From the NCBI GenBank assembly GCA_022750375.1, contig JAKIVU010000006.1, positions 8,553 to 56,501 of the forward strand: 47,949 nucleotides of DNA, written 5' to 3'. Both the position numbers and the translations under genes were made by a program. This document shows positions 36,740-43,049 of this stretch, one piece after another. This DNA is from Thermoplasmata archaeon. GTDB taxonomy: Archaea; Thermoplasmatota; Thermoplasmata; Lutacidiplasmatales; UBA184. A model generated the notes under the pieces. That model searched no databases. It had not been told where the DNA came from and saw only the letters and a program-made list of their open reading frames with translations. How positions within the stretch are numbered: the first letter of the stretch is position 1; each line of letters begins with the position of its first letter.

Positions 36740-37999
36740 TCACGCCGCCGTATGCTCTGACTCGTCGCCCGGGCCCGGATCGGTCGGGGGGTTTCGCGGG
36801 GGCGGCGCGCGGGCGACGAGGGCGGCACGGCTGTCCGCACTTGCCCACTGTACCGTGGGAAGCACGACGTGCCGGCGCGCTTCGAGCCGTCGCCGGAATC
36901 GGATCAGGTCGCGGAAGATCTCCCGCATTACGTCCTCGAATTCGCGCGTGCGGCGGTACCCGAGGGCCACCAGACGGTCGTGGATCGGGTTGTAATAGTG
37001 CTGCTCCGCCTCCGTGCGGGGGTTGGGAGGATGCTCGACGACCGGCCGGAGGTTGAACTCGGTGGCCACGCGTGCGGTCATCTCCGCGAGCTCGTTGACG
37101 GAGTACGCGGCGTCGAACTGATTCAGGACACGGTATTCACCGGTCGCCGCCGGATTTTCGATCGCAATTCGTAGCGACTGCATCGAATCTTCGAGCGCGA
37201 TGAAGCCTCGTCGCTGCTCGCCTTTGCCGTATGGCGTGATTGGCAGGCCGAGCACGGCTTGAGCGATAAATCGATTCAGCGACGTGCCCCAGGTCTCGTC
37301 GAAATCGAACCGGGTGAGGAGGCGATCGTCGCTGATCTCGGGCGTCCGCACTCCGTAGATGACGCCCTGCATCACGTCCGTCGCGCGAAGATGCCAGATC
37401 TTGGAGGCGAACATCACGTCTCCGGAATCGAAGACCTTGCTCCAGTGATACCACGACCCCGCCTGGCGAGGGAATGGCATCCGGTCTCTCCGTCCCCGAT
37501 ACTCGACCTCGAAAAATCCCTCCGCGATGTCCACATTGGGAGTACCGTACTCTCCCATCGTGCCCATCTTCACGAGGTGCGCGCCGGGGCAGACCTCGCG
37601 CATGGCGTACAGAAGGTGGAGCGTCCCGGTGAGGTTTCCCACCTGGGTGTCGACTGCGTGATGCACATCGATCATCGAGTACGGAGCGGACCGCTGTTCG
37701 GCGAGGTGGACGATCGTGTCCGGACGCTCGACCTCGAGCACGTGTCGGACGAAATCGTATCGTCCGAGGTCGCCCCGGTGGAATCCGATCTCCTTACCGA
37801 GGACCGTCCGTACCGCGGCCTGGCGGCGGGCGAACGAAGGGATGGGCGTGGCCGACCAGCTGCCGACCTCGCGCACCCGCTTACGGGTGACGAAATTGTC
37901 GATGCCCACGACCTCGTGGCCCCGCGACAGCAGGTGGAGCGCGAGGGGCCAACCCGAGTATCCGTCGATGCCGGTGATCAGGACCTTCGTGCCCGGCAC
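36740..37999 (-). CDS. agl3: NAD-dependent epimerase/UDP-sulfoquinovose synthase (SQD1/Agl3-like)
   Basis: VLITGIDGYSGWPLALHLLSRGHEVVGIDN, HLAEQRSAPYSMID, VKMGTMGEYGTPN, FDFDETWGTSLNRFIAQAVLGLPITPYGKGEQRRGFIALEDSMQ. Confidence 0.83.
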   Translation of the reverse strand: MPGTKVLITGIDGYSGWPLALHLLSRGHEVVGIDNFVTRKRVREVGSWSATPIPSFARRQAAVRTVLGKEIGFHRGDLGRYDFVRHVLEVERPDTIVHLAEQRSAPYSMIDVHHAVDTQVGNLTGTLHLLYAMREVCPGAHLVKMGTMGEYGTPNVDIAEGFFEVEYRGRRDRMPFPRQAGSWYHWSKVFDSGDVMFASKIWHLRATDVMQGVIYGVRTPEISDDRLLTRFDFDETWGTSLNRFIAQAVLGLPITPYGKGEQRRGFIALEDSMQSLRIAIENPAATGEYRVLNQFDAAYSVNELAEMTARVATEFNLRPVVEHPPNPRTEAEQHYYNPIHDRLVALGYRRTREFEDVMREIFRDLIRFRRRLEARRHVVLPTVQWASADSRAALVARAPPPRNPPTDPGPGDESEHTAA

Positions 38000-38105: not shown

Positions 38106-38900
38106 GTGGCTGTCGAGGTCGGAATGGAGTCGCACGATGTCCGGATCGTCGATACGCGCGACGAGCCGTTGAAGGGCGCGATGATGGTCGTCGGGTTTCC
38201 GACGCACGGGCTCGTCGGCTCCGTGGCGGCATCGTACCTGGTCCACACGCTCGACATGAGCCTCGTCGCGTACATGGTCAGCGAGGAGTTCCCCCCGACC
38301 GTCATCATGGAGGAGGGCGTCGTCGGAGCCCCCGTCCGTTTCTACGCGAGCAAGCTCGTGTGCGGCGTCGACCGGTCGTGCGACCAGCTGGTCGTCGTCA
38401 TCGCGGACATCCAGCCCCCCGTGGGGATGCTGAACGTGATGGGGCGCGCACTCCTGGATTGGGCCGAGGCGAAGGGGGTTCAGCTGGTCGTCGCCGTCGA
38501 AGGACAACCGATCGAGGATGAAACCCGGGGCGACGCCCGGGTCGTCGCGATGGCCAACCGCGCCGCCGCTCCGCTGCTCGAGAAGTATCAGTTCGCCGCG
38601 GCGAACGGAGTGGTGACCGGGCTCGCTGGCGGGCTCCTGTTGGGTGCGATCGGCCGGACGACGCCGGTCCTTTGCCTGGTCGCCCAGGCGCACAAGGATT
38701 ATCCCGACGCCCGGGCCGCGGCGAAAGTGATCGAGACGGTCAACCCGCTCGTGCCGCTGATGGTGCTCGACACCAAACCGCTCCGAGACAAGGCACGACA
38801 GATCGAGGCGGAGGTCCGGAAGACCCTGCAACAGACGCGAGACTCGATCTCGAGCATGCGGACCGCGGAGACCGAAGGGCCGGGTGAGATGTATCGCTGA
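38106..38900 (+). CDS. PAC2 family protein (proteasome assembly chaperone family)
   Basis: MMVVGFPTHGLVGSVAASYLVHTLDM, VVIADIQPPVGM, GLAGGLLLGAIGR; GTG start. Confidence 0.85.
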   Translation: MAVEVGMESHDVRIVDTRDEPLKGAMMVVGFPTHGLVGSVAASYLVHTLDMSLVAYMVSEEFPPTVIMEEGVVGAPVRFYASKLVCGVDRSCDQLVVVIADIQPPVGMLNVMGRALLDWAEAKGVQLVVAVEGQPIEDETRGDARVVAMANRAAAPLLEKYQFAAANGVVTGLAGGLLLGAIGRTTPVLCLVAQAHKDYPDARAAAKVIETVNPLVPLMVLDTKPLRDKARQIEAEVRKTLQQTRDSISSMRTAETEGPGEMYR

Positions 38901-39390
38901 CACGGCCCCCGGTACGACGGTCTTCCATGTACCCGACGATCGACCCGCCGTGACCCTTCGCGGCTTCCGTCCGGTCGACGTTCCGTTCATCTCCTCCGTG
39001 GTCGCGGACGCGCTCCACGAGCACTACGACCCGACCCTCTACCAGTCGCTGAGCACCGAATGGCCGGACGGGTTCCTCGTCGCCGCGGACTCTCAGGACG
39101 TGCCCGTGGGGTTCTTGCTGGGCGTAAGTCAGGTCGAACGCGAGGCGCGGATCTTGATGTTCGCGGTCGACCGCGGCCACCGCACCGTGGGGGTGGGGAC
39201 CCTGCTCATGACGGCGTTCCTCGAGCGATGCCGCGCGCGAGGCTACCATCGCGTGACGCTCGAGGTCCGAGTGTCGAACGCGACCGCGATCCGGTTCTAC
39301 ACCCGGTTCTCGTACTCGGTCCTCGACCTCCTCCGCGCGTACTACTCGGACGGAGAGAACGGCTACCAGATGGCGCGCGAGCTCGGCTGA
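38884..39390 (+). CDS. GNAT family N-acetyltransferase (RimI-like)
   Basis: DRGHRTVGVGTLLMTAFLERCRARGYHRVTLEVRVSNATAIRFYTRFSY. Confidence 0.88.
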   Translation: MRCIADTAPGTTVFHVPDDRPAVTLRGFRPVDVPFISSVVADALHEHYDPTLYQSLSTEWPDGFLVAADSQDVPVGFLLGVSQVEREARILMFAVDRGHRTVGVGTLLMTAFLERCRARGYHRVTLEVRVSNATAIRFYTRFSYSVLDLLRAYYSDGENGYQMARELG

Positions 39391-39443
39391 GCTCCCCTGC
39401 TAAGGGCGGAGGGGCTAAAGCCTCCCGACCCTGATTGCCGGCA

Positions 39444-40694
39444 ATGCCCGGTACTTGGCCCTCGGCCAGTGACCTGATGACGGCCCGTCCGTCGACCCTA
39501 CCCCACGACGCTCCGATCGCTCGCGCGCTCGGATTGATGCGGACGCACGGCTTCCACGAGATCCCGGTCCTTCGAAACTCCCGCCTGATCGGGATGATCA
39601 CCTTTGAATCGATCGCGCGGCGCGCGAGCCGTGCCCTCGACACGAAGGTCGAGCACATCCTGATCCTTCCGCCGCTCGTCACTGCGGCCTCTCGGCTGCC
39701 CGAGATCGCCGAGCAGCTGCTCGCGACGGGGCTCCGGGCCGCCCCGGTGGTCGGCGCCCGTGGAGAGCTCCTCGGGATCGTCAGTCGCACCGACATTGTT
39801 CGCGCGCTCATCTCCACGGCCGAAGCGGCCGGGATCCGGGTGGAGGAGATCGCGCGGTCGGCGGACCTCATCATTCACGAGAACGACATGTGCCGCCAGT
39901 TGACCGGCCAGATCCGTCTGCTCGAAGAGCATCCGCTGCCGGTCCTCGACCGGAAGGAACGGCTCGTCGGCGCGGTCGGCGTCGCGGACCTCGCGGCGGT
40001 GCTCTGGAGGCCGGTGACGGGCGGTAAGCGTGATGCGCGCGCGGGTCGGCCCGCGCTCGACGTCAAGGTCGGTTCGATCATGCATTCTCCCGCGGTCACG
40101 GTTCCGATGGGCACACCCGCCTCCGAGGCGGCGCGGCTGATGACTCGGGAGAAGGTGTCGAGCGTGTTCGTCGTGGAACCGGGCGCGGCCCCGCGGACGG
40201 TCGGGCAGGCCGAACTGCTCCAGCTCGTGATCGGCAAGAGCCGGGGCCCCTCCCCCCGGGGAGCAGTGGAGGATGTCTACGTGGAGATCACCGGTCTCCG
40301 CGGCTCCGGTGACCCCGGCCTCCTCGCGGAGATCGACCACCTCGTCGCCGCGGGCCTCCGGCGGATCGCTCAACAGGTTCGCCCGACCCTCTTGAGCCTC
40401 CACTTCGCCCCGCACGCCACCCACCGCACGAGCGACCTCACGCTGGAGGCCCGTTTGCACACGGAGGAGGGCATCTTCTATGCGTCCCACACCGGCTGGA
40501 ATCTATTGGCCGGGGTCTCCGACCTGCTCGAGGAGCTGGCCGGGCAGACGCGACGGGTCCGGGAGGCGAACCGACAGCGGGGACGGACGGCGCGATCCCG
40601 AGGGGTCGATGAGGAGAGCCCGGTCGACGACCCGGAGCTCGAACGTCGTATCCGCTCCGCCACCGGGGACCGTGACGCCGAGGACGAAGAATGA
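39444..40694 (+). CDS. four-CBS-repeat protein with C-terminal HPF/RaiA-like region (putative ribosome-associated regulator)
   Basis: CBS repeats: ASDLMTARPSTLPHDAPIARALGLM..., PEIAEQLLATGLRAAPVVGARGELLGIVSRTDIVRAL, LLEEHPLPVLDRKERLVGAVGVADL, VGSIMHSPAVTVPMGTPASEAARLM. C-terminus: DVYVEITGLRG...LRRIAQQVRPTLLSLHFAPHATHRTSDLTLEARLHTEEGIFYASHTGWNLLAGVSDLLEELAGQTRR. Confidence 0.8.
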   Translation: MPGTWPSASDLMTARPSTLPHDAPIARALGLMRTHGFHEIPVLRNSRLIGMITFESIARRASRALDTKVEHILILPPLVTAASRLPEIAEQLLATGLRAAPVVGARGELLGIVSRTDIVRALISTAEAAGIRVEEIARSADLIIHENDMCRQLTGQIRLLEEHPLPVLDRKERLVGAVGVADLAAVLWRPVTGGKRDARAGRPALDVKVGSIMHSPAVTVPMGTPASEAARLMTREKVSSVFVVEPGAAPRTVGQAELLQLVIGKSRGPSPRGAVEDVYVEITGLRGSGDPGLLAEIDHLVAAGLRRIAQQVRPTLLSLHFAPHATHRTSDLTLEARLHTEEGIFYASHTGWNLLAGVSDLLEELAGQTRRVREANRQRGRTARSRGVDEESPVDDPELERRIRSATGDRDAEDEE

Positions 40695-41089
40695 TCCCCG
40701 GCGGCCCCCGCAACGCGCGCCAGATGGAGCAGATGATGCGCCGCCTCGGAATGACGAGCGAACCGATCCCGGACGTCGAAGAGGTGATCGTCCGGACCCG
40801 GTCGAAGGAGCACGTCTTCCAGAAGCCCGAGGTCACGGCGCTCACCGTGCAGGGCGTCCGCACCTACCAGGTCGTGGGCCAGCCGGTGATCCGCGCCCGC
40901 AGCGCGGTACCACCAACCGAATCGTCCGGCGGGAGCGCGGCGGCCGCCCCGAGCGGTCCCCCGGAGGAAGACATCCGACTGGTGATGGATCAGGCGAACG
41001 TCTCCCGGGAGGAGGCGCTCGAGGCACTGTTCCAGGCGAAGGGCGAGCCGGCCGAAGCGATCATGAAGATCCTGACGCGGAGTCGTTAG
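40691..41089 (+). CDS. nac: nascent polypeptide-associated complex protein
   Basis: MIPGGPRNARQMEQMMRRLGM, NAC core, C-terminal UBA: IRLVMDQANVSREEALEALFQAKGEPAEAIMKIL. Confidence 0.93.
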   Translation: MIPGGPRNARQMEQMMRRLGMTSEPIPDVEEVIVRTRSKEHVFQKPEVTALTVQGVRTYQVVGQPVIRARSAVPPTESSGGSAAAAPSGPPEEDIRLVMDQANVSREEALEALFQAKGEPAEAIMKILTRSR

Positions 41090-41533
41090 GTGGACGAGCC
41101 GGCCGGACCCGTGGTCCGGGAGTGCGTCGAAGGTTACCTGTTCTCCACGTCACCGCTGGAGCTGCTGCTTTTCCGGCGACCGCCCGCTCGGGGGCAGATA
41201 TGGGTCCCGATCAGTGGGAAGGTCGAGTTGGCTGACGCCGACTGGGAGGCGGCGCTCCGTCGCGAGCTCCGCGAGGAAACCGGCCTCGACCGTCCCCGCC
41301 GCATCGTGCCGCTCGACTGGCATGTCCGGTTCCGAGCCGACAACGGCGAGACCTGGCGCCTTCACGCCTACGCGGTGGAGGTGGACCGCACGTTCGTTCC
41401 GGTCCTGAGCGCAGAGCACGAGACCTCCCAATGGACCAATCCGGCAGAGGCTATTCGGCTCCTGCATTACGAGGACAATCGGGCCGCGGTAGAGCGCCTC
41501 GGTCGCGTTCTCAGCCCCTCCCCAAAGGTTTAG
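41090..41533 (+). CDS. NUDIX hydrolase
   Basis: Nudix box GKVELADADWEAALRRELREETGL; GTG start. Confidence 0.87.
   Translation: MDEPAGPVVRECVEGYLFSTSPLELLLFRRPPARGQIWVPISGKVELADADWEAALRRELREETGLDRPRRIVPLDWHVRFRADNGETWRLHAYAVEVDRTFVPVLSAEHETSQWTNPAEAIRLLHYEDNRAAVERLGRVLSPSPKV
41529..41533 (+). promoter_or_regulatory. archaeal TATA-like box of dph2
   Basis: GGTTTAGCCC about 33 nt upstream of the dph2 ATG; same motif and spacing as other genes in the window. Confidence 0.5.
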
Positions 41534-41564
41534 CCCGTCATTCCGGTCGTCGGGGCCGACGGCG

Positions 41565-42602
41565 ATGGCGGACCCTCCCACCCCAGTACCGGTGAACATC
41601 CCACCCTCGTTCGTCTTTCCGACGATCGGGCCCGCCCTCTTCTCGGCGCTACGGGACGCGAAGCCTCAACGGATCGTGCTCCAGGTTCCGGCGGGCCTCA
41701 TACGCAACGCGCACGACCTGGCGGCACGGCTGCGAGAGGAAACCGGCGCGCGCGTCACCGTCGCCACCCGCGCCTGCTTCGGTGCCTGCGATTTTCCGTC
41801 GGTCGACGAAGCTCCGAAGTCGGACGTCGCGGTCGTTCTGGGTCACTCACCGATCCCGAACGTGCGGGTAGTACGCCCGACGTACTTCGTCGAGATGCGG
41901 GACCCGGGCGGGGACCCCGAGGCGTTGGCGGCGACCGTTGCGAGCGCTGCGCTCCCGCGGAAGCTGGGTCTGGTCGTCTCCGTCCAGCACCTCGACCTCG
42001 TGGAAGCGCTCACCCGCGCTCTCGAACGGGGCGGACGGGAGGTCCGAGTCGGTCAGGGCGATCGCCGCCTGGCGTATCCGGCCCAGGCGCTCGGATGCAA
42101 TTACACGGGCGCCGAGGCCGTTGCCGCGGACGTGGACGCGTTTCTGTTCGTCGGCACGGGAAGGTTCCACCCGATCGGCCTCGCGTTCGCGGTGGATCGA
42201 CCGGTCTGGTCCCTCGACCCGCTGCAGAACGTGATCGAACCGCCCATCGACCGGGGTGCCCTCATCCGGAAGCGGCAGCTCACCGTCGCCCGTGCGCGGG
42301 ATGCCCTCCACTGGGGGATCCTCGTCTCCTCGTTCGCGGGCCAGAACCGGATGCCCACGGCGCTCGCCCTCCAGGAGCGGGCGCAGTCGCGGGGACGCGA
42401 CGCCGAGATCCTCGTGTTCGACCGGCTCGACCCTCGCGACCTGGAGGGCCGCGCGCTGGACGCCTACGTGAACACCGCCTGCCCCCGGATCGCCCTCGAT
42501 GACGGGGAACTCTACGCGAAACCGATGCTCACTCCCCCAGAGTTCCTGATGGCGCTGGGGGAGTTACCGCTCGAGTCCTACCGGTTCGACACGTACCACT
42601 GA
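41565..42602 (+). CDS. dph2: diphthamide biosynthesis enzyme Dph2
   Basis: VLQVPAGL, CFGACDFPSVDEA, VLGHSPIPN, GCNYTGAEAVAADVDAFLFVGTGRFHPIGLA, NTACPRIALDD. Confidence 0.93.
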   Translation: MADPPTPVPVNIPPSFVFPTIGPALFSALRDAKPQRIVLQVPAGLIRNAHDLAARLREETGARVTVATRACFGACDFPSVDEAPKSDVAVVLGHSPIPNVRVVRPTYFVEMRDPGGDPEALAATVASAALPRKLGLVVSVQHLDLVEALTRALERGGREVRVGQGDRRLAYPAQALGCNYTGAEAVAADVDAFLFVGTGRFHPIGLAFAVDRPVWSLDPLQNVIEPPIDRGALIRKRQLTVARARDALHWGILVSSFAGQNRMPTALALQERAQSRGRDAEILVFDRLDPRDLEGRALDAYVNTACPRIALDDGELYAKPMLTPPEFLMALGELPLESYRFDTYH

Positions 42603-42647: not shown

Positions 42648-43049
42648 GTGCGAGGCTGGGCGCTCGTGCCGGGCGGGCTCATCGCGGCCGGCGTGCTCCT
42701 GGTCGTGTGGGCGGCGATCCAGGGCGGTGCCGGTCTCGCGATCGTCGTCGTCGTGCCGGTCATCTACGGCCGCTCCCTCGCGTTCGTGGCCGGGGTGCTC
42801 CTCCTGGTGGCGGGACTCTTCACCCTCCCGCTCGCGTTCGAGTTCGACGACCCGGAGGAGCCTGCGACGGGCGGGGGTCGCACCACCGGGGCGGGCACCT
42901 CGGCGGGGGGACTCATTCTCCTCGGGCCGATCCCGATCTTCTTTGGAAGTTGGAAGGACGTCTCCGCCCGAACCCGACTGATCGCGGCCGTTCTCGGAGG
43001 GGCGGTGCTCGTCGCGGCGATCGTCGTGTTGCTGTGGTCGCGGACCTAG
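42648..43049 (+). CDS. DUF131/TIGR00304-like membrane protein
   Basis: Three hydrophobic segments and GGLILLGPIPIFFGSWKDVSARTRL. Confidence 0.75.
   Translation: MRGWALVPGGLIAAGVLLVVWAAIQGGAGLAIVVVVPVIYGRSLAFVAGVLLLVAGLFTLPLAFEFDDPEEPATGGGRTTGAGTSAGGLILLGPIPIFFGSWKDVSARTRLIAAVLGGAVLVAAIVVLLWSRT

Follow-up and report, generated by a model that had tools for sequence, protein, structure and literature searches.

The window analyzed here, a 47,949-nucleotide stretch of contig JAKIVU010000006.1 from a Thermoplasmata archaeon, carries a gene, hibA, that is very probably the Lutacidiplasmatales orthologue of the archaeal ribosome-hibernation factor HibA, with which its product agrees in homology, architecture and predicted fold. 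HibA consists of four CBS domains and an HPF/RaiA domain and is present in 47% of archaeal genomes; cryo-EM revealed three CBS positions on the 50S subunit and an HPF domain fixed on the 30S subunit (PMC13324472, Nat Commun, 27 April 2026). HibA inhibits translation, and knockout in Thermococcus barophilus resulted in delayed recovery and fewer 70S ribosomes; the Pyrococcus abyssi and T. barophilus proteins were reported to bind ribosomes and AMP, to inhibit translation and to preserve 70S ribosomes (PMC13324472). By homology, these four activities would also be expected of the window protein. The initial annotation had pointed to a CBS plus HPF-like architecture coupled to NAC; the combination of CBS and HPF domains is already published as the defining layout of HibA (PMC13324472) and is no longer surprising, and the novelty of the present case is modest and lineage-specific. 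What is new here is the pairing with nac, the gene of the nascent-chain chaperone NAC, a C-terminal tail of the lineage and a nucleotide-contact-type motif in CBS2 rather than CBS3, the CBS-HPF idea itself being known.

The hibA and nac reading frames

Positions 39444-41089 had initially been described as an ORF overlapping nac. The overlap was confirmed, but the span consists of two genes, hibA followed by nac:

39444..40694 (stop included), forward strand: hibA, protein of 416 aa with four CBS repeats and an HPF/RaiA domain (ORF list, Pfam, profile match to 9sr9_H, AlphaFold2)
40691..41089, forward strand: nac, archaeal NAC with a NAC domain and a UBA-like end, 132 codons (TIGR00264, PF01849)

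Translation of hibA starts at ATG 39444 and stops at TGA 40692-40694, while an alternative in-frame TTG at 39435 would lengthen the protein to 419 aa. The frame is shared by about 60 other non-redundant loci at approximately 35-83% identity, indicating that it is real. The nac gene begins with ATG 40691-40693, overlapping the hibA stop in the tetranucleotide ATGA (40691-40694), and ends with TAG at 41089. Its identity was assigned by the equivalog model TIGR00264 (110.4 bits, above the cutoff of 80; E = 5.8e-32) and by PF01849 (E = 7.1e-15), with the UBA-like end scoring just under its cutoff.

Domain architecture and predicted fold

The following parts were distinguished in HibA up to the end of the HPF domain:

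39459..40247, forward strand: CBS module, approximately aa 6-268, four CBS repeats forming two Bateman pairs (PF00571, Foldseek)
40005..40061, forward strand: counterpart of the PTC loop, aa 188-206, WRPVTGGKRDARAGRPALD (aligns with residues 190-207 of P. abyssi HibA, PMC13324472)
40269..40595, forward strand: HPF/RaiA-type domain (C-terminal profile, PF02482 in relatives, AlphaFold2, Foldseek)

The CBS module was matched by PF00571 with E = 2.6e-32, and three stretches were significant individually in Pfam. When the full-length AlphaFold2 model (35 natural sequences; pLDDT 83.5, pTM 0.78) was compared with the PDB by Foldseek, the best matches were the CBS parts of ribosome-bound SriA and Dri together with AMPK-gamma-like proteins. 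HibA was not among these best matches, the PDB copy used for the fold search ending at 2026-04-08 and possibly predating the HibA entries. The long PTC loop of the CBS3/4 region, a feature of HibA, is present in the window protein; its counterpart was modelled with pLDDT below 50 at residues 190-199, and G194 and D197 were nearly invariant in the alignment of relatives.

Direct scans were uninformative for the C-terminus. The window protein alone gave no PF02482 (Ribosomal_S30AE) match above the gathering cutoff in the Pfam scan, a PF02482 search of its own genome gave zero matches because of the sensitivity of the model, and the top three PDB entries in a phmmer search with the C-terminus were HPF proteins at non-significant E-values of 0.4-0.8. 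LuxC and DUF3320, which appeared in the direct Pfam/NCBIfam scans, were rejected as chance matches. Therefore alignments of collected relatives were needed, from which a full-length and a C-terminal profile were built and then run against the PDB. Among the relatives themselves, 9 of 13 and 19 of 34 matched PF02482 individually (best E = 9.1e-8). The C-terminal profile retrieved 24 chains at E ≤ 10, 21 of which were HPF/RaiA/YfiA-type or CBS-HPF proteins, the others being one DNA-binding protein and, as the two weakest, designed proteins. When the C-terminal domain was folded separately, Foldseek ranks 1-34 in the PDB were all HPF/RaiA/pY proteins with TMt up to 0.81. Two readings of the initial annotation were thus borne out: that of the N-terminal 270 residues or so as four CBS repeats, by PF00571, the model and the Foldseek matches to four-CBS proteins, and that of the C-terminus as HPF/RaiA, by the C-terminal profile, the PF02482 matches of relatives and the predicted fold, the last being the structural check it had proposed.

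Full-length match to 9sr9_H, the presumed HibA of Pyrococcus abyssi

The best PDB chain for the full-length profile was 9sr9_H (392 aa), matched over residues 4-378 with E = 2.4e-45. The alignment was collinear over approximately 370 residues and covered both the HPF strands and the PTC loop. This chain, deposited under the name 'Dehydrogenase', is almost certainly P. abyssi HibA, an identification based on chain length, the CBS-HPF arrangement and what PMC13324472 describes. Against the HibA assignment stand the missing PF02482 match of the window protein alone, its identity of only about 22% to 9sr9_H, and its charge: the HPF domain is balanced (14 K+R versus 14 D+E) and is followed by an acidic tail, so that RNA binding is less obvious.

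A C-terminal extension and a displaced nucleotide motif

Two further features set the lineage apart from P. abyssi HibA:

40596..40691, forward strand: acidic, lineage-specific C-terminal extension, aa 385-416, with a DPELERRIR helix (alignment, AlphaFold2)
39783..39794, forward strand: SRTD, aa 114-117, nucleotide-contact-type S/TxxD motif of CBS2 (SxxD in 56/56 lineage loci)

An extension of 26-41 residues past the HPF helix was present in nearly all members of the family. Its DPELExRIR-like motif was found in 51 of 56 lineage loci versus 0 of 31 HibA proteins from other Thermoplasmatota, and AlphaFold2 predicted a helix at residues 397-407 with low to moderate confidence. PMC13324472 places the C-terminus of P. 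abyssi HibA at the mRNA exit channel, close to the SD:anti-SD duplex, which would therefore be the natural location for the tail of this lineage.

The S/TxxD motif was invariant in CBS2, whereas that of CBS3 was degenerate (GxxD in 47/55 loci) and that of CBS4 variable, the window protein having GVAD and GQAE at these two positions, respectively. In 9sr9_H, on the other hand, CBS2 has SxxA, and TxxD occurs in both CBS3 and CBS4. A putative adenylate site, if there is any, may therefore have shifted to the first Bateman pair in this lineage, as far as the motifs can tell.

A second HibA-like copy of 39-40% identity (L047:1757-2962 and L048:2-823), alongside which nac was not detected, was also observed in two same-genus genomes (G041 and G038); L047 spans the HPF part, and L048 is truncated by a contig edge.

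Conserved pairing of hibA with nac within one lineage

The lineage considered here is a family of Ca. Lutacidiplasmatales, and the relatives include the isolates SubAcS10-22, AcS5-107 and SubAcS15-120, names that PMC9287336 gives to Ca. Lutacidiplasmatales genomes, which places the window in this order or very close to it. The neighbours of hibA and nac were assigned as follows:

38106..38900, forward strand: PAC2-family (proteasome assembly chaperone-like) protein, conserved upstream neighbour (PF09754, E = 3.4e-35)
38884..39390, forward strand: GNAT acetyltransferase closest to RimI, conserved upstream neighbour (TIGR01575, 7e-21, 74.8 bits, below the cutoff of 86.4)
41090..41533, forward strand: NUDIX hydrolase, conserved downstream neighbour (PF00293, E = 3.1e-15)
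41565..42602, forward strand: Dph2, diphthamide (aEF2 modification) enzyme, conserved downstream neighbour (TIGR03682, 5.1e-79, over the cutoff)

With hibA and nac, these form a run of six genes on one strand (38106-42602: PAC2, RimI-like GNAT, HibA, NAC, NUDIX, Dph2) that contains several overlaps or near-overlaps and is largely kept in the family. Directly 3' of dph2, positions 42648-43046 encode a small TIGR00304/DUF131-family membrane protein. On the reverse strand, the product of positions 36743-37999 is closely related to UDP-sulfoquinovose synthase (NF041015, 573.9 bits versus a cutoff of 575), a sulfolipid-type enzyme in an archaeon.

In all 57 non-redundant family loci with enough downstream sequence, nac was found directly 3' of hibA. 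The flanks were less constant (gnat upstream in 53/60, nudix downstream in 44/48 and dph2 in 19/23, counts that omit three loci of other families of the same order), and in those three loci the hibA-nac link was absent. The distance between the two genes was mostly -4 to 40 bp. The overlap of stop and ATG, initially taken as a sign of coupling, is seen at the window but in just 11 of the 57 loci, and was rejected as a conserved feature. Beyond these, none of 57 other Thermoplasmatota genomes carrying both genes paired hibA with nac, nor did any of 32 genomes from a second phylum (the one to which an Archaeoglobaceae genome belongs), where the nearest pair on one contig was 40 kb apart. Many of these genomes are draft assemblies in which the two genes lie on different contigs (44 of 61 in one survey), but genes next to each other would usually be assembled together. 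A pan-archaeal CBS-HPF-NAC module was accordingly rejected, and our literature search for a CBS/NAC operon found none. By the neighbourhood survey proposed at the outset, the original claim of a nac link thus holds within a single family-level lineage and does not extend across archaea.

Proposed function and alternative roles

Most likely, the product is a HibA orthologue, encoded in a run of translation and proteostasis genes, and serves to silence ribosomes that are idle and to shield them. The CBS module would sit in vacant tRNA sites of the 50S subunit with its loop at the peptidyl-transferase center, and idle 70S ribosomes would thereby be silenced and shielded, remaining reusable once growth restarts. 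The hibA gene would be co-expressed with nac within a translation/proteostasis operon, a proposal that concerns expression and does not extend to physical contact between HibA and NAC.

A closer functional pairing, in which HibA (for idle ribosomes) is produced together with NAC (for translating ones) and ribosome occupancy switches between the two, or in which NAC assists in loading or releasing HibA, looks quite unlikely to us. It would fit the fact that hibA and nac stayed together throughout the family even though pac2, gnat, nudix or dph2 had moved in several loci and divergence reaches 35% identity, as well as the overlaps in 11 loci and the co-occurrence of the HibA extension with the pairing. 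However, the pairing is lacking in the other Thermoplasmatota and in the second phylum, short gaps are commoner than overlaps, and the neighbours are generic translation/proteostasis genes as in a housekeeping operon. We consider even less probable a rewired HibA in Ca. Lutacidiplasmatales, in which obligate co-expression with NAC, an acquired, conserved helical tail that by analogy would reach the mRNA-exit/anti-SD region on the 30S subunit, and an adenylate site moved from CBS3/4 to CBS1/2 would together act as a switch, peculiar to this lineage, between ribosomes that translate (NAC-bound) and ribosomes that hibernate (HibA-bound).

Adenylate-gated silencing, as the initial annotation suggested, could operate if AMP at CBS1/CBS2 switched the lineage protein onto ribosomes. 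The invariant SRTD of CBS2 is consistent with this idea, and the CBS module of HibA binds AMP (Kd 12 μM), ADP and ATP; however, the nucleotide was observed at CBS3/4, where the lineage motifs are degenerate or variable, and for P. abyssi HibA neither ribosome binding nor the state distribution responded clearly to AMP or ATP (PMC13324472). The gate is thus not supported, and we regard it as unlikely for this lineage. Very improbable is a CBS regulator that has the HPF fold but acts elsewhere, for instance in transcription or with a partner linked to DNA: PMC13324472 refers to pulldowns linking HibA to factors of DNA replication and recombination, and the CBS-only family CM-3 includes a transcription regulator (PMC13324472), but the full-length match is to HibA, for which the principal demonstrated role is ribosomal, and the genomic setting comprises nac, dph2 and a RimI-like acetyltransferase.

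The orthologue described here adds to HibA a well-supported branch from an order of soil archaea that is uncultured. What its CBS module senses was left open by PMC13324472, and the fixed nac linkage, the new C-terminal motif and the displaced nucleotide motif provide comparative handles on this question.

Comparison with known systems

HibA of P. abyssi (Q9UYR4 / PAB0961, PDB 9sr9_H; PMC13324472) shares with the window protein the four CBS repeats, the C-terminal HPF/RaiA domain, the long PTC loop and the collinearity noted above. It differs in that only the window lineage has the acidic DPELExRIR extension, S/TxxD in CBS2 instead of CBS3/4, and the pairing of the gene with nac. The same profiles also matched both the CBS and the C-terminal HPF-like parts of PDB 9l96_a, a CBS-domain chain of 406 aa, although its full-length match was weaker than that of 9sr9_H (E = 6.8e-31). 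From sequence, this entry and 9l98, 9l9c and 9l9v probably represent another HibA-type structure; a search of the literature yielded no source for 9l96.

Dri (Pyrobaculum calidifontis, 9e6q/9e7f) and SriA-D (Methanosarcina acetivorans, 9znf/9zng/9zni) are likewise ribosome-bound archaeal CBS modules and rank with the top Foldseek hits for the CBS part, but they have no HPF/RaiA domain. Dri has two fused CBS modules and no HPF, whereas the window protein has one CBS module and an HPF domain and hence is not a Dri. Conversely, bacterial and chloroplast HPF/RaiA/pY proteins (PF02482) resemble the window protein in the C-terminal fold and, by homology, would point to binding in the 30S channel; they have no CBS module, and the archaeal domain carries two insertions (PMC13324472).
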